From positions 1,736,001-1,800,000 of the forward strand of contig NZ_JAKPBU010000001.1 of NCBI RefSeq assembly GCF_022662495.1: a DNA stretch of 64,000 bases, read 5' to 3'. The DNA comes from Lysobacter sp. M2-1 (lineage in GTDB: Bacteria > Pseudomonadota > Gammaproteobacteria > Xanthomonadales > Xanthomonadaceae). Positions 10,561-20,160 of this stretch are shown here, one piece after another. A model generated the notes under the pieces. It was not told where the DNA came from and ran no database searches. It saw nothing but the letters and a program-made list of their open reading frames with translations. The position numbers were made by a program, and so were the translations under genes. Each line of letters starts with the position of its first letter. Positions within the stretch are counted from its first letter, which is position 1.

Positions 10561-10585
10561 TCGCCGATTGTTTCAGGGCAAAAAC

Positions 10586-11770
10586 ATGAACGAAACCGAC
10601 GGCGACGCAGCCCCCGGCGCGTCCCGCTGGGGCTTGGGTACCCTGGCGATCCACGGCGGCCAGGCGCCGGACCCGAGCACCGGCGCGGTGATGCCGCCGA
10701 TCTACGCGACCTCCACCTACGCCCAGTCCAGCCCGGGCGTACACCAGGGGTTCGAGTACTCGCGCACTCACAACCCCACGCGCTTCGCCTACGAGCGCTG
10801 CGTGGCAGCGCTGGAAGGCGGCAGCCGCGGGTTCGCCTTTGCCTCGGGCATGGCAGCGACCTCGACCCTGCTGGAGCTGCTCGACAGCGGTAGCCATGTC
10901 GTCGCTATGGACGACCTCTACGGCGGCAGCTACCGCCTGTTCGAGCGCGTGCGCCGCCGCTCGGCCGGGCTGGACTTCAGCTTTGTCGACCTCACCGATC
11001 CGGCCGCGTTCGAAGCCGCGATCCGGGCCGACACGCGCATGGTCTGGATCGAAACCCCGACCAACCCGATGCTCAAGATCGTCGACCTGCAGGCGATCTG
11101 CGCGATCGCGCGCAAGCGCGGGCTGGTCTCGGTGGTCGACAACACGTTCGCTTCTCCGATTCTGCAGCGCCCGCTGGAACACGGCGCAGACATCGTCATG
11201 CATTCGGCCACCAAGTACCTCAACGGGCATTCGGACATGGTCGGCGGCATGGTGGTGGTCGGCGACAACGCCGAACTCGCCGAGCAGCTGGCCTTCCTGC
11301 AGAACTCGATCGGCGCAGTACAGGGGCCGTTCGACAGTTTCCTGGCATTACGCGGGTTGAAGACGCTGCACCTGCGGATGAAGGCGCATTGCGAAAGCGC
11401 GCAGCAGGTCGCGGAATGGCTGCAAGGCCATCGTGCGATCGAGCATGTGATCTACCCGGGCCTGGAGTCGCATCCGCAGCACGCACTCGCCGCCCGCCAG
11501 ATGGACGGGCCCGGCGGCATCGTCTCGATCCGCCTGAAGGGCGGTTTCGAGGCGGCCAGGCGCTTCTGCGAACGAACCGAACTGTTCACCCTGGCCGAAT
11601 CGCTGGGTGGCGTGGAGAGTCTGGTAAACCATCCGGCGGTGATGACGCATGCGTCGGTGCCGGTGGAAAGGCGCAAGGTGCTCGGCATTGCGGATGATTT
11701 GGTGCGGTTGAGTGTCGGTGTGGAGGCCCTTACAGACCTGCTCGCCGACCTGGATCGGGCATTGTTGTGA
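10586..11770 (+). CDS. cystathionine gamma-lyase / gamma-synthase (metB-like)
   Basis: The 394-residue PLP enzyme belongs to the Cys/Met metabolism family. The PLP lysine is in HSATKYLNGHSDMVGG, preceded by ETPTNPMLKIVD and VDNTFASP, and the substrate-binding SLGGVESLVNHPA is near the C terminus. Sequence alone does not separate lyase from synthase; the cbs partner upstream favours gamma-lyase, giving cysteine from cystathionine. The homologous gene in Xanthomonas, often called metB, marks one border of the LPS locus, and here too polysaccharide genes begin 31 bases after its stop. ATG 10586 has AGGG upstream; a TTG at 10568 is unlikely because the -10 box puts it at the transcript start. Confidence 0.9.
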   Translation: MNETDGDAAPGASRWGLGTLAIHGGQAPDPSTGAVMPPIYATSTYAQSSPGVHQGFEYSRTHNPTRFAYERCVAALEGGSRGFAFASGMAATSTLLELLDSGSHVVAMDDLYGGSYRLFERVRRRSAGLDFSFVDLTDPAAFEAAIRADTRMVWIETPTNPMLKIVDLQAICAIARKRGLVSVVDNTFASPILQRPLEHGADIVMHSATKYLNGHSDMVGGMVVVGDNAELAEQLAFLQNSIGAVQGPFDSFLALRGLKTLHLRMKAHCESAQQVAEWLQGHRAIEHVIYPGLESHPQHALAARQMDGPGGIVSIRLKGGFEAARRFCERTELFTLAESLGGVESLVNHPAVMTHASVPVERRKVLGIADDLVRLSVGVEALTDLLADLDRALL

Positions 11771-11801
11771 AGTCGGGATCGCTTTTTGGCCGAGGCGCAG
11801 C

Positions 11802-12590
11802 ATGAGGTCGCTGAGCCACGACCTTGCGGAGAGCATGAGAGCTCCAGAGTTCTGGGCGCTTTCGAGTTGGCTCGATATCGTGGTGCGATACCGTCAATCC
11901 CGCCTCGGGATTTTCTGGCTCGTTGCTCCGGCGATCGTCTATATCTGGGGTTTGGGAGCGTTTTTTGCCGCCATGATGGGCGTCAGCGTGACCAGATTCG
12001 CGGCCCATGTGGCAATCGGTTACGTGGTCTATCGATTGGTCAGCAGCGCTATCGTCGAATCGACCACGGCTTTCTCATCCGCAGGTGCGTTCATCCAGGA
12101 TGGCCACATGCGGTTGACCGACTTCGTGCTCAGGGTATTGGCCAAGGCACTGTTTTACTTCGTGATGTCGCTGCCGGTGGTCGCGGTGGCTCTGGCGATC
12201 TATCCCGACATCCACTGGAGCGGATTCGCCTATGCGCTAGCTTCATTTCCGCTGGTAATCCTCAACGCGCTGTGGGTTGGGATCTTGTTTGCCTTGGTCG
12301 GTGCCCGCTTTCCGGACCTCAGCCAGTTCATTGGCAACGTCTTCATGTTCGCGTTTCTCCTCACGCCAATTATCTGGCAGGCGGACTCGATGCCTGCCGA
12401 TAGCTTGCGTGGATTGCTGATGCGTTTTAATCCCCTGTTCCATATGGTCGAAGTGGTTCGAGCGCCGATCCTTGGTGAGCAGCTGGAGGGTCTTACTTTG
12501 TATTACCTTGGCGCAATGACCTTGCTGGGTTGGGCCGCGGCGATCTTCGCCTATCGGCGTTACGCGCGCTTCGTGCCAATCTGGATCTGA
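11802..12590 (+). CDS. wzm: ABC-2 type polysaccharide export permease (Wzm-like)
   Basis: The 262-residue protein has about six membrane helices and the ABC-2 permease pattern (WLDIVVRYRQSRLGIFWLVAPA at the N terminus, GNVFMFAFLLTPIIWQADSMP and FNPLFHMVEVVRAPI towards the end). With the ATPase encoded five bases downstream it would move a lipid-linked polysaccharide across the inner membrane, as in O9a-type O-antigen export. The start at ATG 11802 gives the usual family length; the frame is open further upstream only through overlap with the metB-like gene. Base composition drops in GC from this gene on. Confidence 0.88.
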   Translation: MRSLSHDLAESMRAPEFWALSSWLDIVVRYRQSRLGIFWLVAPAIVYIWGLGAFFAAMMGVSVTRFAAHVAIGYVVYRLVSSAIVESTTAFSSAGAFIQDGHMRLTDFVLRVLAKALFYFVMSLPVVAVALAIYPDIHWSGFAYALASFPLVILNALWVGILFALVGARFPDLSQFIGNVFMFAFLLTPIIWQADSMPADSLRGLLMRFNPLFHMVEVVRAPILGEQLEGLTLYYLGAMTLLGWAAAIFAYRRYARFVPIWI

Positions 12591-12595
12591 CGGCG

Positions 12596-13756
12596 ATGAG
12601 CGCCTCCATCACGGTTGAACGGCTCACTCTGTCGGTGCCGATCTACTTGCAGCGCGAGCGCCGTGCCAGCGGCTGGGCGAGGATGTTCCTGGGCGCTGCG
12701 TTTGATCCGCCACGACGCGAGCTCATCCGGCTGCTCGACGACATCAGCTTCGAGGCGCACGAAGGGGATCGCATAGCCATTCTGGGCCGCAACGGCGCTG
12801 GCAAGTCGACCCTGCTACGCGTGCTGAATGGCGTGTATGCTCCTACTTCGGGTCATGTGCGAGTGGATGGCAGCTGCCAGGCGCTGCTCAATATGTCGCT
12901 GGGATTCAATGGCGAGGCGACCGTGCGCGAGAACATTTTCCTGCGCGGTACCGCGATGGGGCTGAAGGCGGCCAGCCTGCGCGAGCAAATTGAGCCGATT
13001 CTGGATTTTTCCGGACTTCACGACAAGTCGAATCACCGCTTGCGCACATTGTCGGCCGGGCAGAGGATGCGGCTGGGCTTCGCGATCTCGACCACGTTCC
13101 AGCACGATGTGATCCTGATGGACGAATGGGTTGGGGCGGGCGATTCAGAATTCATGGCCCGGGCGACCGAACGGATGAAGGGGCGCGTCGGTGGTAGCAA
13201 GGTAGTGATGTTGGCCAGTCACAGCGTCGGCTTGCTACGCGATATTTGCAACAAAGGGCTCGTACTGGAACAGGGACGGGCCGTGCACTTCGGGGACATT
13301 CTGTCGTCGCTGCGGGCCTACCACGACTTGCTTGCGTCGCTGCGCGAACAGGACGTCGTCCCCGAGTTGCAGTCGACTTCCGCCGAGGTGATCTACGGCT
13401 GCGTAGAGAACCTGATCGTGGCGCATGGCGCGATCCATCTGCAAGGCTGGTGTGTCAGCAATACCGGAAAGGTTCCGCGGACGTTGGCTTTGGCGATCGG
13501 CGGCACGCGCCATGCGGCCACTGTATTCGAGTCCTGCCCACGTCCCGATGTGATGCGTCACTTTGGGTTGAGCAACGACCAGTGTGGTTTTCGTGCGACT
13601 TTCGCGGTCCCGGGTCTCGAATCCGCGAACGATATCGACTTTGACCTCAGGGTGCTGGGCGGGCACTCGATCGAGGATGCACACGCCCCGCTGCGCATCG
13701 CGGGCGCGGTGTCGGCGATGCTTCGCCCCTCAACCCGTTCAACGACAGTCCAGTAG
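12596..13756 (+). CDS. wzt: polysaccharide ABC transporter ATPase with extra C-terminal domain (Wzt-like)
   Basis: The 386-residue protein has an ATPase core in residues 1-240: Walker A GRNGAGKST (64-72), signature LSAGQRMRLGF, Walker B VILMDEW (172-178), and the Wzt-type DEWVGAGD. A separate domain covers about residues 260-375. In O9a and O8 systems this C-terminal domain binds the modified end of the finished glycan. Here it contains GW (284-285), RPDV (316-319) and CGFR (330-333), and the same pattern recurs at the end of the next gene product. Start ATG 12596 follows the permease stop by five bases. Confidence 0.88.
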   Translation: MSASITVERLTLSVPIYLQRERRASGWARMFLGAAFDPPRRELIRLLDDISFEAHEGDRIAILGRNGAGKSTLLRVLNGVYAPTSGHVRVDGSCQALLNMSLGFNGEATVRENIFLRGTAMGLKAASLREQIEPILDFSGLHDKSNHRLRTLSAGQRMRLGFAISTTFQHDVILMDEWVGAGDSEFMARATERMKGRVGGSKVVMLASHSVGLLRDICNKGLVLEQGRAVHFGDILSSLRAYHDLLASLREQDVVPELQSTSAEVIYGCVENLIVAHGAIHLQGWCVSNTGKVPRTLALAIGGTRHAATVFESCPRPDVMRHFGLSNDQCGFRATFAVPGLESANDIDFDLRVLGGHSIEDAHAPLRIAGAVSAMLRPSTRSTTVQ

Positions 13757-13768
13757 ATCGCAACGAGA

Positions 13769-15169
13769 ATGGCTCAGTATCAGTCCTTTCCCGACGCCAC
13801 CGGCGACTCCCGTACGCTCGAGAAGCTGAAAGCGCTACGGCTGCCTCCGCTCGCGGGTAAGCGGTTCCTGGACGTGGGATGTAATGAAGGTTTTTTTTGT
13901 GGTTACGCGCTGTTCGATGGCGCGCTTCGTGCAGTCGGCATCGACAGTTCTGCACTATTCATATCGCGAGCGCGCCGCCGGTTTCCTGCCGGTGAGTTCC
14001 TGCACCAGGGATGGGAAGAGCTCCCGGACGGGCCATTTGACGTCATCCTCCTCGCCTCGGCATTGCATTATGCAGAGGATCAACCCGGGCTCATCAGGTC
14101 GCTTGTTGCTCGGTTGGCGCACGATGGTGTGCTGGTGCTTGAACTCGGCATCGCGTCGTCGCCGAAGGAGGAATGGGTCAACGTCGAGCGCGGAATCGAC
14201 GAGCGTCTGTTCCCAACCATGCCGTTGCTGCGTAGATTGCTGAACGACTACGCCTGGAAGTGGATGGGACCGAGCGTCGCCCAGTCCGGCGATCCCGTTG
14301 CAAGACATGTAATCCACGTGTACCGGCGTCGTCCAATTGCGTACCTGCTGATGGAGCCGCCGGCGTACGGGAAGACGAGCATTGCAACGGGCTTGTTCGC
14401 CGAAGCCCGGATTCCCGTGGTTTCCGGGGATTCCGTGATCGCAGATCTGGCCGCAGGCAAGCGCTCGGCAAGCGATGCGCTACGGAACCTGCTCGCTGAC
14501 CGGTACTCCCCATTCCGGATCGACGAACTAGTGCGGGAAGCTTTCGACCATGGCGGGGGTGGCGAGCTTGTGGACGCATGGGTTTCCGCTGCTGAAGGGG
14601 AAACCTTCGCTCTCGACGGGTACGTTCCTGCGGAATGGCAGGATTATGTGAAGCGCGCCTTGATAGAGGCGGGATATATGCCCGTAGCAATGCACTGGGA
14701 GCGGGTTGGCGCTGCTCTGCCAGCGGCCGCCGACCGGGACGCGAGTGCCGAAAACTATTTCCTCCACCTGAGCGAGGAACTGACCGAGGCGCCCTCAAGC
14801 GAGGGGCCTGATTCCCGGCTGCCTATGCAAGGCTTCATCGACGAAGTAAGCGTCGAGGAAGGCTTCCTCGTGATACGGGGTTGGGTAGTAGGGCAGGATG
14901 GCAAAATGCCCCGATGCCTCCAGATCCGGTCGGTGGCGGGCAGCCATCTGCTGGAAGAGTTTGAGCGTCAGCTTCGACCGGATGTGCAGAAGTATCTGGG
15001 CTTGCCGCATGCAGTCTGCGGTTACCGCGTCCGGGTGCCGTTGGCGGGCAAGGCGGTCAACCTCGCCAAGCTTGTTCGGACACTGGAAGTGCGCGCAGGC
15101 AACGGCGCGAACAGCCTGGGACCAGCGCTGACGCTGGCCGGTCACCTCGCACTCCGCTCTCGAGGATAG
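13769..15169 (+). CDS. methyltransferase / P-loop fusion, candidate O-chain terminator
   Basis: Three segments are visible in 466 residues. Residues 1-130 form a class I SAM methyltransferase (motif I FLDVGCNEGFF at 33-43, acidic GIDSSALF, DVILLASALHYAED). Residues 190-320 look like a small P-loop kinase fold: IAYLLMEPPAYGKTSIATGL carries a degenerate Walker A (196-204, Glu in place of the first Gly). Residues 354-460 repeat the GW / RPDV / CGY domain found at the end of the Wzt-like ATPase. Methyltransferase plus kinase next to Wzm/Wzt recalls WbdD, which ends O9a chains with a methyl phosphate, but WbdD uses a protein-kinase-like fold. The capping role is inference. Confidence 0.7.
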   Translation: MAQYQSFPDATGDSRTLEKLKALRLPPLAGKRFLDVGCNEGFFCGYALFDGALRAVGIDSSALFISRARRRFPAGEFLHQGWEELPDGPFDVILLASALHYAEDQPGLIRSLVARLAHDGVLVLELGIASSPKEEWVNVERGIDERLFPTMPLLRRLLNDYAWKWMGPSVAQSGDPVARHVIHVYRRRPIAYLLMEPPAYGKTSIATGLFAEARIPVVSGDSVIADLAAGKRSASDALRNLLADRYSPFRIDELVREAFDHGGGGELVDAWVSAAEGETFALDGYVPAEWQDYVKRALIEAGYMPVAMHWERVGAALPAAADRDASAENYFLHLSEELTEAPSSEGPDSRLPMQGFIDEVSVEEGFLVIRGWVVGQDGKMPRCLQIRSVAGSHLLEEFERQLRPDVQKYLGLPHAVCGYRVRVPLAGKAVNLAKLVRTLEVRAGNGANSLGPALTLAGHLALRSRG

Positions 15170-15265: not shown

Positions 15266-17026
15266 ATGCAAATGATCGTGCTTGGCATGCATCGATCGGG
15301 CACGTCCGTGCTCGCACGGGTACTGAACCTGATGGGTGGATATTTTGGCCCGGAAGGGGTCAGCACGGGCTCGAACCAGGAAAATCCAAAGGGCTTCTGG
15401 GAGCGACGCGATGTGCGCGCCCTGAACGACTGGGTCCTGCATTCCGTTGGCGCAGACTGGAATCGGCTGGCCCGATTCGACGTGGATAACCTGCCGGAAT
15501 CCATCGTCAGCGAGTTCTCCCAGCGGGCGGCGCGATTGGTGCTGGAGCTCGATGCCCATCGTCCTTGGTTCCTCAAGGAGCCGCGCTTGTGCATCCTGCT
15601 TCCGCTGTGGCTGCGCGTGCTTGAAGTGCCCATAGCCATCCACATCATCCGACACCCGGTGGAGGTCGCTGCTAGCCTGCGTACGCGCAACGGTATTCCA
15701 ATTGCCGCGGGACTGGCGTTGTGGGAGAAACACGTCAGATCCGCAGTTGCGATGTCAAGGCATTTGCCGGGCGTCCTTGTCACGCACAGACAGCTGGTAC
15801 TGGAGCCCGCACAGGAAATTGCACGCCTTCACAAGGAGCTTGCTGACCTCGGCGTTGCCGGTTTGAGGTTGCCAGGCAAGCAAGAAATAGATGCGTTCGT
15901 AAGCACGGATCTCTATCGGGAACGCGAATCGAGCATCGACGTGAACGAAAACGACGGCGCGGAACAGGTCCGGCTCTTCGGGCGATTTAAGGACGGCCTC
16001 CCGCATTTGGAGCTCAAGCTTCCGGCGGGTAGCGTCAAGCAACTGGTGCACTACGAGTCGACGTTGCCGCCTATGGACCCCACTCCGAAGAGCCAAGCCA
16101 TGCCGCAATCGGTCGACGTCGCCCTGCGAGAAAAAGTAGCGGCACGCGAACAGGAGGCGAAATCGCTGCGCGAGTCCGTTGCGAAGCTCGAGGCGAGCCT
16201 GCTACGTAAGGAGGAGCGACTCACTGCAGAGCTGATGAGCATCGGCCAGTTGCAAGCCCAGGCAATGTTCGTCGAGCAGCAGTCCGCCGCTGCCAGAATG
16301 GAGATCGGCAAGCTCCAGGCAGAGCTAGAGCGCAGCCTCGTTAAAGCAGCCGGGCAAGAGCGGGAACTCCAGTCCCTGCAGTCCAGAGTCGCGACGCTAT
16401 CGGCAGCCAACGCGTCCGCGGAGTCGCGTTTAGAGCAAGCCATTGCCAAAGCAAAAGCAGAACAAGCCGATCACTCGCGCCTGTTGGAGAAAAGCGAGGC
16501 CGCCCGCTCAGAGGCGGAGCAGAACTCCGAGACGAGATTCCAAGAATTGGCCATGCTCACACAAGTGCTGCTCGAGCGTGAAACGGCACTTGAATCTGCA
16601 CGGAAGGATCTAGAGGCAGCGAACGCTGATTTGTCCGAATGCAGGACGGAGCGCGATACAGCGCACGAGTCACTGGCGCGCATGCGAAACAGTCGGTCCT
16701 GGCGGATCACGGCGCCCATTCGCGCCCTTTTTGGCGGACGACCAAATCGTCCGCATGGTGCACCGGCTAAAGAAATCGACATCGTCTCCCGTTCCGGATT
16801 GTTTGACCGCCAGTGGTACCTGGAGACCTATCCCGATGTCGCAGCCAGCGGGATGGACCCCATCGAGCACTTTCTGCGGTTCGGTGCCGTTGAGCGCCGC
16901 AATCCCGCGCCGGGCTTCGATGTGGAAAGCTATCTGGCAAAGAATCCCCATGTCGCACAGTCGGGCATGAATCCATTGGTCCATTTCATCGTCAACAGGT
17001 CGTCGGAGGGGCAGAGTCGCACATGA
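15266..17026 (+). CDS. sulfotransferase-like protein with long coiled coil and C-terminal PDV repeats
   Basis: Residues 1-230 of 586 match sulfotransferases: a PAPS-binding loop GMHRSGTS (7-14) and a 3'-phosphate site IHIIRHPVEVAASLR. About residues 285-480 form a continuous coiled coil rich in Glu, Ala, Lys and Ser. NSRSWRITAPIRAL follows, a motif common after coiled coils in glycan enzymes. The end holds two copies of a motif of the form WYLxxYPDVAxSGMxPxxHFxxxG (about 510-575), also found at the start of the next protein. The gene overlaps the next by four bases and lies 96 bases after the methyltransferase fusion. A role in sulfating the exported glycan is inferred from cysD/cysNC in the same island. 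Confidence 0.72.
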   Translation: MQMIVLGMHRSGTSVLARVLNLMGGYFGPEGVSTGSNQENPKGFWERRDVRALNDWVLHSVGADWNRLARFDVDNLPESIVSEFSQRAARLVLELDAHRPWFLKEPRLCILLPLWLRVLEVPIAIHIIRHPVEVAASLRTRNGIPIAAGLALWEKHVRSAVAMSRHLPGVLVTHRQLVLEPAQEIARLHKELADLGVAGLRLPGKQEIDAFVSTDLYRERESSIDVNENDGAEQVRLFGRFKDGLPHLELKLPAGSVKQLVHYESTLPPMDPTPKSQAMPQSVDVALREKVAAREQEAKSLRESVAKLEASLLRKEERLTAELMSIGQLQAQAMFVEQQSAAARMEIGKLQAELERSLVKAAGQERELQSLQSRVATLSAANASAESRLEQAIAKAKAEQADHSRLLEKSEAARSEAEQNSETRFQELAMLTQVLLERETALESARKDLEAANADLSECRTERDTAHESLARMRNSRSWRITAPIRALFGGRPNRPHGAPAKEIDIVSRSGLFDRQWYLETYPDVAASGMDPIEHFLRFGAVERRNPAPGFDVESYLAKNPHVAQSGMNPLVHFIVNRSSEGQSRT

Positions 17027-20000
17027 CCGTGCTTTCGGTTCCATGTACAGCGCTGCTTCGTAAGCAGATCGTCGCCTCCGGTTTTGTGGACGACAGCTGG
17101 TATAGGGCACGTTACCGCGACGTAGCGATGGTGGGAATGGATCCGGTTGAGCACTATCTGCGAATTGGAGCTCTTATCGGCCGTTCTCCAGGCCCCTTGT
17201 TTGATGGCCCCCGGTACCTTCGCGAGTATCCGGACATTGCGGCCTCAGGAAAGAATCCGCTCCTCCACTACCTCCAACATGGGATCCGCGAGGGACGGAT
17301 TCGCCATCCCCTGGAGCGAGTACCGGTCGGGGATCCCGCCGAGCACCTGGAATCGCTAGCCAATGCCACGCTCGACGGCGCGCCAAAACGGATGTTCGCA
17401 GGCTTCGACTTCGATGCTCAGGAGGAATTCCTCGGATGCATCGCCAAGCTTGTCGGAGACTCCGAGGCATGTAAGGTCAGCGTGATCATGCCAACCTATA
17501 ACCGGGGTGGCATGATCGGAACGGCAATCGAGTCGGTACTGGCGCAGACGCATCCGTCCTGGGAGCTGTTGATCGTCGACGACGGCAGTAGCGACAACAC
17601 TTTCGATGTGGTCGGCTCATTTGCCGCAGACTCACGGATTCGTATTTTCCGCCAGCATCACAGAGGTGTCAGCGCGGCGCGCAACACTGGGCTGGCGAAT
17701 GCAGAGGGTGATTGGATTTTCTATCTGGATTCCGACAATCGTTGGGCACCAGATTTCTTGCGTTCGATGGTGGTCTACCTCAAGCATGTCGGGCGCCGGT
17801 GCGGGTACAGCGCCATCGCCGTTCAAGACGACGACGGTGCCGTCGCAGGCTACCGGGGCGAGCCGTTCGACTGGAACGAATGCATCAAGGGGAACTACGT
17901 CGACCTGAATGCGTTCTGCCACGACCGGACCCTGTACCAGCTCAATGGCCCATTCGACGAAAGCCTTCGGAGGATGGTGGACTGGGACCTCATCCTTCGT
18001 TACACCAAGGCCGAATCGCCTGCTTACGCGCCCTTCGTTGGATGCTATTACCGCAACAGCAACGCCGACACCTCGCGCATCTCGGTATCGCAGCCGCTGG
18101 CATACCGCAGCGTTGTCCAAGCCAAGAACAGGCTCGAAGACCCAACGCCGGAGGCGATCGCGACCGACTTGAGGCTGCGCTTTGCCATTAAGATCCCCGC
18201 CCCGTTCGAGAAGCGCCAGGAGTGGGGCGACTTTCATTTTGCGGAGTCGCTCAAAACCAGCCTTGAACGTCTGGGCCATACGGTAGTCATCGACTTCCTC
18301 GGGAACTGGTACGACCGACCGGTTAGCCACGACCAGGTGGTACTCGTACTTCGTGGCCTCACCGCCTACGAACCCAGGCCGGGGCAAATCAACATCCTGT
18401 GGAACATCAGCCACCCCGACCAGGTTGCCTATGACGAATACGATGCGTACGACATCGCGTACGTTGCTTCCTTGTCGTACCCGAGGCTTCTCAACCAGAT
18501 AGTGTCAAGTCCAGTGCGGCCGCTCCTGCAATGCACCGACACTGATCGCTTCTGTCTTACTAGCGTCGCTGCCGCGAATGAAGACGCTATATTCGTGGGA
18601 AACTCACGCAACGAATATCGGCGCATCGTTCGTTGGGCGGTAGAATCTGGTGCCAGAGTCAAGGTCTACGGCAGTCGCTGGCAGCAGTTCATCGACGAGG
18701 ACCGCATTGCCGGCGAGAACATCGATAACCGTCTGCTCGGCGAGCATTATGCTTCCGCCAAGGCTGTACTCAACGACCATTGGGACTCGATGCGCGATTT
18801 CGGGTTCGTGTCCAACCGCGTGTTCGATGTTCTGGCCGCGGGCGGACGCTTGATCTCGGATCCGGTGCCTGCAATCTCGAAAATATTCACCAATGGCGTG
18901 TACGAGGTGGATTCGGCGGAGTCGCTTTCTCGCGCGCTCTTGGAAATGGACGGTACGGAAGGTCGGCCCGATCGCGGGCTTGCGGCCGATGTAGCCCGGC
19001 AGCATTCGTTCGATTCGCGGGTCATGCAGATCTGCAACGATATTCTTGTCTTTCTTGGTCTGCCAAAAGTGCATGCCGGCAACGACGGTACCGCCGAGCT
19101 CAGGTTTTCGCCCGAGCCCACTCGCGTAGGCGTACTCATGCAGAAAGGCAGGTATGGACCCACCAGTTCGGGCTACATTCGGCTGCTCGCTCCGCTGACC
19201 ACGGATGAGGCGTTGGGGAAAGTCGAAATCGTGGTGCTCGACGGGGTGGACGACCCCGCCGGGGAGGAGTGCGAAGCTTGGGTCGTCCAGCGCACCGCCA
19301 TCGGTGATCCGCATGCGGCCGAAGCACTCGTGGACCGACTACAGCAGCGGGGTGCGGCCCTCTTCGTTGACATTGACGATGCGCTTGCATTGCTCGATCC
19401 GTCGCACCCAGAAGCCGACGATTATCGGGTCAAGGATACGTCGCTGCGTTATCTCATGGGCGAGGCAAGGCAGGTTTGGTTTTCGACCGAGCATCTGCAA
19501 AGCGTCTACCCTGAGGTGGGCGCGCGCGGACGAGTATTCCGCAACAATCTGGACCCGCGTCTCTGGCGAAACTACCGCAAGCGGCGGCGATCCGTGGGAA
19601 GCAGCGACATGATGGAGCTGCTGTACATGGGAACGGCGACCCATGATGCTGATTTTGCGCTACTCCTTCCGGCACTCGATCGCTTGCACGAAGCGCATCC
19701 CGGCCGGTTCCGCCTGACTGTCATCGGTGCGTTGCGTCGGCCGCCGGATCGGGAATGGTTGCAGGTTACGACACCGCGCGGAAACCAGGGCAACTATGCA
19801 AGGTTTGTGCGTTGGCTGGCGCTCCAAGGTCCTTTCGATGTCGGATTGGCTCCACTGGCCGACACTCCATTCAACACTTGCAAGTCGGACATCAAGTTCC
19901 TTGACTACAGCGCGCTGGGGATAGCTACAGTACTCTCGGACAGCCCAGCTTACGGTGGCCTAGCAGGACGGGGTCTGGCGTTTGCATGCGGGAACACTGC

Positions 20001-20160
20001 GGACGCCTGGTTCGAGGTGCTGCAGGGGATCTTGGTTGGCGAACTGGATGTGGACGCAATTGCGAGTCATGCGTGGGACTATCTGTGGAACGAACGCACG
20101 GTTCAGGCCGAGCCCCTGATGCAGGCGATCGCGTCCGCTACATCGTGCGAGACCCGATGA
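17023..20160 (+). CDS. multi-domain glycosyltransferase (GT2 plus two GT-B-like modules)
   Basis: The 1045-residue protein starts with two PDV-type repeats (about 20-95). A GT2 domain follows from residue 152 (SVIMPTYNRGGMIGTAIESV, VDDGSSDNT, and the metal-site region YLDSDNRW). Next is a CgeB-like/Glyco_trans_1_2 module (about 370-680, with GNSRNEYRRI and GFVSNRVFDVLAAGGRLIS). The last part (about 705-1040) resembles a second GT-B fold (ELLYMGTATHDADFALLLPAL, then KFLDYSALGIATVLSDSPAYGG). It may therefore add more than one sugar to the chain. It overlaps the sulfotransferase-like gene by four bases and wbqC-like by four. Donor and acceptor sugars are unknown. Confidence 0.82.
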   Translation: MTVLSVPCTALLRKQIVASGFVDDSWYRARYRDVAMVGMDPVEHYLRIGALIGRSPGPLFDGPRYLREYPDIAASGKNPLLHYLQHGIREGRIRHPLERVPVGDPAEHLESLANATLDGAPKRMFAGFDFDAQEEFLGCIAKLVGDSEACKVSVIMPTYNRGGMIGTAIESVLAQTHPSWELLIVDDGSSDNTFDVVGSFAADSRIRIFRQHHRGVSAARNTGLANAEGDWIFYLDSDNRWAPDFLRSMVVYLKHVGRRCGYSAIAVQDDDGAVAGYRGEPFDWNECIKGNYVDLNAFCHDRTLYQLNGPFDESLRRMVDWDLILRYTKAESPAYAPFVGCYYRNSNADTSRISVSQPLAYRSVVQAKNRLEDPTPEAIATDLRLRFAIKIPAPFEKRQEWGDFHFAESLKTSLERLGHTVVIDFLGNWYDRPVSHDQVVLVLRGLTAYEPRPGQINILWNISHPDQVAYDEYDAYDIAYVASLSYPRLLNQIVSSPVRPLLQCTDTDRFCLTSVAAANEDAIFVGNSRNEYRRIVRWAVESGARVKVYGSRWQQFIDEDRIAGENIDNRLLGEHYASAKAVLNDHWDSMRDFGFVSNRVFDVLAAGGRLISDPVPAISKIFTNGVYEVDSAESLSRALLEMDGTEGRPDRGLAADVARQHSFDSRVMQICNDILVFLGLPKVHAGNDGTAELRFSPEPTRVGVLMQKGRYGPTSSGYIRLLAPLTTDEALGKVEIVVLDGVDDPAGEECEAWVVQRTAIGDPHAAEALVDRLQQRGAALFVDIDDALALLDPSHPEADDYRVKDTSLRYLMGEARQVWFSTEHLQSVYPEVGARGRVFRNNLDPRLWRNYRKRRRSVGSSDMMELLYMGTATHDADFALLLPALDRLHEAHPGRFRLTVIGALRRPPDREWLQVTTPRGNQGNYARFVRWLALQGPFDVGLAPLADTPFNTCKSDIKFLDYSALGIATVLSDSPAYGGLAGRGLAFACGNTADAWFEVLQGILVGELDVDAIASHAWDYLWNERTVQAEPLMQAIASATSCETR

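Follow-up and report, generated by a model that had tools for sequence, protein, structure and literature searches.

A methyltransferase/P-loop kinase protein encoded beside wzm-wzt in a Xanthomonadaceae LPS locus, a candidate capping enzyme of ABC-exported polysaccharides

The gene at positions 13769-15169 (+) of the window, the whole 64,000-nt stretch of DNA that was analysed, encodes a protein of 466 aa that very probably combines a methyltransferase, a P-loop kinase and a C-terminal domain shared with the product of the neighbouring wzt gene. This protein (hereafter the enzyme) is likely to carry out glycan phosphorylation/methylation in an ABC-export pathway. The best reading of the data, held with about even confidence, is that of a glycan kinase/methyltransferase of ABC-exported polysaccharides that probably adds a methylphosphate chain cap and uses a third kinase fold. 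The chances are roughly balanced that the enzyme makes a chain-end cap that is read by Wzt. Chain-end capping sets the length and export of many bacterial surface sugars.

Gene content and order show that the window contains the end of an LPS locus nearest metB; in xanthomonads such loci are flanked by metB and etfA and begin with wzm and wzt (PMC2238763, PMC8042644). A gene of the cystathionine-lyase type (10568-11770; identified by sequence and position) is followed by the ABC-2 permease gene wzm (11712-12590, + as listed, with a true start likely near 11802; NF050109, E 2.1e-48, and PF01061) and by wzt (12596-13756, +), which encodes the O-chain exporter ABC ATPase. The initial annotation called the latter product merely a Wzt-like ATPase; it is a real Wzt in which the N-terminal ATPase domain (NBD, residues 1-245) is present and is followed by the shared C-terminal domain. 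The gene for the enzyme was correctly placed directly after wzm-wzt: it is a real ORF of 466 codons' worth of protein that begins 12 bp past wzt. Next come a sulfotransferase-coiled-coil gene (15266-17026, +), assigned by a Sulfotransfer_3 match, a coil proxy and a domain map, and a gene for a multi-domain glycosyltransferase (17023-20160, +; PF00535 and PF13524) with an N-terminal domain identified by its YPDVA match, which is likely the chain-making enzyme. The enzyme itself was compared with 53 related loci, 16 from the same family (Xanthomonadaceae) and 37 from other lineages, giving 54 sequences over which conservation was calculated. Homologues in many genera are 46-57% identical to it over the full length, and its AlphaFold2 model has a pLDDT of 93.6.

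Residues 1-182 (13769-14314, +) form the class I SAM methyltransferase domain that had been proposed, with invariant columns, CmoB-type folds and Pfam matches to Methyltransf_23, Methyltransf_11 and Methyltransf_12 that lie above the cut-offs (Methyltransf_23, E 1.9e-11). The motif LDVGCNEGFFC is near-invariant in the homologue alignment, with one position varying. The nearest folds include CmoB and, lower down, DhpI, which methylates a phosphonate and is no more than a lead. No chain named WbdD is found among the PDB sequence matches of the enzyme. In one homologue, from genome G038 (L089:2134-3423), the SAM-binding methyltransferase motif I is gone but the P-loop kinase and the shared domain are intact, which suggests that the kinase is retained for a function of its own.

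A small P-loop kinase-like domain with a linker helix occupies residues 183-345 (14315-14803, +) and is identified by the AlphaFold2 model, Foldseek and Pfam matches in homologues. The model of this domain (pLDDT 93.8) has a beta-P-loop-alpha core, a parallel sheet and an Asp after strand 2, and the kinase core ends near residue 310, with the linker helix following it. The top PDB matches returned by Foldseek are P-loop kinases (gluconokinase, adenylate kinase and APS kinase), at modest scores (best E 7.5e-4, TM about 0.41). Model and fold search thus agree with the P-loop kinase fold predicted earlier for residues 185-330, with a somewhat earlier end to the core. Residues 183-345 of this protein alone have no Pfam match; AAA_33 is matched in 21 of the 54 homologues and AAA_17, Zeta_toxin or ADK in others, and a profile of the domain picks up PDB adenylate kinases and zeta by sequence.

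The GKTS motif of the initial annotation is part of the Walker A motif EPPAYGKTS at residues 196-204 (14354-14380, +), in which the first Walker A Gly is replaced by Glu/Gln in this branch. The GK[ST] core is conserved, with K202 invariant and G201 at 98% across the 54 sequences, and many relatives have the canonical GxPGSGK[ST]. Asp221, in the S-G-D motif after strand 2 (14429-14431, +), is also invariant; the motif aligns with STGD of adenylate kinases, and the residue is a candidate catalytic or acceptor-site Asp. The invariance of K202 and D221 is the pattern expected from a working kinase. A Walker-B-like strand 3 carries LDGY at residues 282-285 (14612-14623, +), of which D283 is 83% conserved. 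Other small P-loop kinases (gluconokinase, adenylate kinase, APS kinase and the putative kinase 2rhm) are alike in fold, Walker A Lys and Asp after strand 2, but are only 10-23% identical to the enzyme's domain in the fold matches. Among these kinases we know of none that is joined to a methyltransferase and encoded in a polysaccharide cluster. The acceptor of the kinase is not readable from its modelled fold.

The C-terminal beta domain, residues 349-466 (14813-15166, +; modelled as a beta domain at residues 354-453), cross-matches the C-terminal domain of Wzt (13370-13753, +) with 36.6 bits. A profile built from both copies finds exactly two places in the 3.88-Mb genome, Wzt and the enzyme, which bears out the claim of a domain common to the two proteins. 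Among the 149 family genomes that were sampled, the shared domain is found in 18: both Wzt and the enzyme carry copies in 12, a single copy is located on Wzt in five (G041, G104, G116, G127 and G164), and one copy stands at another place in G170, as does one further copy in G034. The two matches in this genome and the near-restriction to Wzt and the enzyme in the 149 genomes rule out a common, widespread domain. The 32 members have no relevant Pfam family and no known Wzt C-terminal family among their matches, and no relevant solved structure was found (the best match, at E 0.02, is an amidase). The two copies show no co-evolution beyond that of the rest of the proteins (partial r 0.04, p 0.40). 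The location of the shared domain on Wzt suggests that it may bind sugar. At a separate locus (L080:6121-8283, -), a WbsX-type glycosyltransferase encoded behind a domain-bearing Wzt has GW...R-D-type stretches at both ends that resemble the shared domain.

Within the family the enzyme was found only alongside a matching Wzm. It is present in 12 of the 149 genomes, 43 have a Wzm that resembles this one, and all 12 are within the 43 (hypergeometric probability about 1e-7, with relatedness ignored). The gene slot behind wzm-wzt was read in a comparison set of 23 genomes that have a close Wzm and lack the enzyme; the ATPase is without the shared domain in 18 of these and has it in 5, versus 12 of 12 enzyme-bearing genomes in which Wzt has the domain (Fisher test 7e-6, with relatedness ignored). 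According to a published rule, capped O-antigen is exported by systems whose Wzt bears a carbohydrate-binding domain (PMC9445017), and in this light the pattern is the one expected of a cap writer and its reader. Mean identity across the 16 family loci is 69% for the methyltransferase, 71% for the Wzt NBD, 50% for the kinase and 38% and 41% for the shared domain, a sequence gradient that would fit a methyltransferase whose target, the phosphate, stays constant and other parts that meet sugars of varying kind. The enzyme was found in 1 of 369 genomes class-wide, and its family is therefore rare and patchy.

Outside the family the context is different in type. At all 37 out-of-family loci this Wzm is absent within 10 kb, which raised the option that these homologues are unrelated to export; that option was rejected, since whole-genome searches locate Kps-type permeases 8-34 kb from the homologues. 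An ABC2 permease lies within 35 kb of the homologue, mostly upstream and on the same strand, in 13 of the 27 whole genomes searched (G001, G006-G013, G015, G021, G024 and G027), and about 2 of 27 would be expected by chance according to our estimate of 4-5 ABC2 matches per 4 Mb. Three regions (L059, L061 and L062) were typed, each with a KpsM-type permease and a KpsE-type protein, along with a KpsD/Wza-like exporter; the NCBIfam matches behind this typing are clear by E-value and lie below the curated equivalog cut-offs. Gene sizes at L060 and L063-L065 resemble those of the typed regions. The neighbours of the homologue in four scanned loci are glycosyltransferases, a UDP-sugar dehydrogenase and Capsule_synth proteins. 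The hosts of the KpsDMTE-type clusters at L059-L065 are Zobellella, Oceanisphaera, Halomonas, Chromohalobacter, Accumulibacter and a deltaproteobacterium. One further homologue (L058:7591-8592) is found in a Candidatus Micrarchaeota archaeon bin, to which it may not belong; an ABC2 permease lies about 12 kb away.

In the two typed regions that were scanned the ATPases are NBD-only (253 and 223 aa), so these Kps clusters have no Wzt-type reader. The Kps-type context ties the enzyme to ABC polysaccharide export generally, beyond cap reading by Wzt. The association of the homologues with ABC exporters stands in part: 15 of the 16 family loci have the order wzm-wzt-enzyme with direct adjacency and nearly half of the other genomes searched have an ABC2 permease in the region, but outside the family none has this Wzm within 10 kb.

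In the proposed mechanism, the P-loop domain would use ATP to phosphorylate a hydroxyl of the non-reducing-end sugar, with K202/T203 and D221 as the residues involved. The N-terminal domain would then transfer a methyl group from SAM to this phosphate. Chain growth would stop at the methyl-phosphate (or phosphate) cap so formed, which would be presented to Wzt, and the C-terminal beta domains of the enzyme and Wzt would each bind the same glycan. We infer the acceptor, the order of the reactions, the terminal position of the cap, the limit on chain length and sugar binding by the shared domain. Capping is favored by the kinase fold, the conserved G/K/D residues, the co-occurrence with Wzm and Wzt, the near-private domain, the published rule for capped exporters, a module order also seen in Klebsiella O7, the higher conservation of the methyltransferase and the G038 variant. 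Set against it are the missing coil, the NBD-only Kps ATPases, the five genomes with a domain-bearing Wzt and no enzyme, the lack of co-evolution, the modest Foldseek scores and the absence of Pfam or solved relatives of the shared domain, and on this evidence we consider capping an evenly poised proposal.

The missing coil directs attention to the next gene. The search for coiled coils used a home-made proxy based on composition, not a dedicated predictor, and found no coiled-coil ruler in the enzyme. The 15266-17026 product has a sulfotransferase head (residues 1-230), a coiled-coil-like stretch of about 182 residues (284-465) and a YPDVA repeat domain (501-586), an end domain that is also present on the glycosyltransferase encoded at 17023-20160. 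By this predicted domain map it is closer to the layout of WbdD than the enzyme itself is. From its sequence, the protein is possibly a separate ruler or a rival, sulfate-type terminator; it would either provide the ruler to a capping enzyme that acts in trans or be the terminator itself. At L041, an ORF that starts 59 bp after the homologue encodes, as read from its sequence, the same coil and YPDVA domain with a methyltransferase-like head, which suggests that catalytic heads may be interchangeable on one coiled-coil scaffold. In genome G127 (L066), wzm and a domain-bearing wzt are followed directly by the sulfotransferase gene, and the methyltransferase-kinase is absent. Of the family loci that have the enzyme, less than half also have the sulfotransferase head.

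These observations make the sulfotransferase-coil protein the strongest competitor for the role of true terminator and ruler, with the enzyme adding some other (internal, side-chain or second) modification. Its catalytic head, long coil and glycosyltransferase-type end domain repeat the WbdD layout, a coiled coil is the field's marker of termination systems, with known terminators sitting on a coiled-coil ruler (PMC11231755), and both the L041 slot with its exchanged head and the G127 arrangement would suit such a role. The protein lacks the domain common to Wzt, however, and its head is missing from most enzyme-bearing loci while the methyltransferase-kinase tracks the Wzt domain in every one of the 12 genomes, so we regard this explanation as rather unlikely. 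Slightly less probable still is a role for the enzyme in which it is no terminator and places repeated phosphate or methylphosphate substitutions (or separate phosphate and O-methyl groups) along O-chains and group-2-type capsules. The presence of the enzyme family in KpsDMTE clusters of several lineages and the lack of a ruler in the enzyme are compatible with this role, but the tie between the family enzyme and a domain-bearing Wzt is a better fit to the reading of an end group.

It is far less plausible that the P-loop domain is a regulatory or degenerate NTPase, which would make the enzyme in effect a sugar O-methyltransferase comparable to the kinase-less WbdD of E. coli O8. The replaced first Gly of the Walker A motif and the lack of a Pfam match for the domain alone would be explained in this way. 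K202 and D221 are nonetheless invariant in 54 homologues against a mean identity of 50% for the domain within the family, relatives have canonical Walker A motifs, and the natural variant in G038 retains the kinase after losing the methyltransferase motif.

If the capping reading is true, the P-loop kinase is a third kinase type for methylphosphate ends and the capping chemistry has been reinvented repeatedly. A domain limited to a capping enzyme and an exporter ATPase would provide a direct handle on how caps are written and read. A further question posed by the Kps-type relatives is whether capping extends to some capsules; for group-2-type (Kps) capsules no terminator of this kind has been established. 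The full proposal, in which a third, independently evolved (P-loop) kinase fold takes part in capping, a glycan-reading domain is present on both the enzyme and the exporter ATPase, and relatives cap Kps capsules, is put forward tentatively.

Two known enzymes with unlike kinases, WbdD (PMC3482155) and Klebsiella O7 ORF6 (PMC11231755), make methylphosphate ends. Like the enzyme, WbdD of E. coli O9a has a methyltransferase followed by a kinase in one protein and works alongside Wzm and a Wzt with an extra C-terminal domain; of the WbdD-family traits, the N-terminal methyltransferase and the adjoining Wzm with extra-domain Wzt (12 of 12 family genomes) are found here, and a eukaryotic-protein-kinase-like domain and a coiled-coil ruler in the same protein are absent. 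The WbdD kinase is eukaryotic protein-kinase-like and is followed by the ruler (PMC3482155), whereas the enzyme combines a P-loop kinase with a beta domain and lacks a coil. By its anatomy the enzyme would work as these terminators do, but by kinase fold and coil it falls outside the WbdD family. The earlier suggestion that the protein has the same logic as WbdD gains support for the cap-and-reader part, given the near-private shared domain and the occurrence of the enzyme in the family only with a domain-bearing Wzt, and is incomplete for the rest, given the lack of a coil ruler and the rival sulfotransferase-coil terminator. WbdD-kinase homologues have been reported in Xanthomonas (PMC3482155). 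In this related genus, WxcB of Xanthomonas campestris is a methyltransferase/kinase-like protein of a Wzm/Wzt O-antigen cluster, and its insertion mutant lost O-antigen, with polar effects not excluded (PMC4878081). By its published description, on which this comparison is based, WxcB resembles WbdD including the kinase, unlike the enzyme (PMC4878081). ORF6-N of Klebsiella pneumoniae O7, a proven methylphosphate terminator, has a matching module order of methyltransferase, kinase and Ig-like CBM; its kinase is similar to the amicoumacin kinase AmiN, and a coil and two GT2 modules follow (PMC11231755). The enzyme differs from it in having a P-loop kinase and an end domain common to Wzt.
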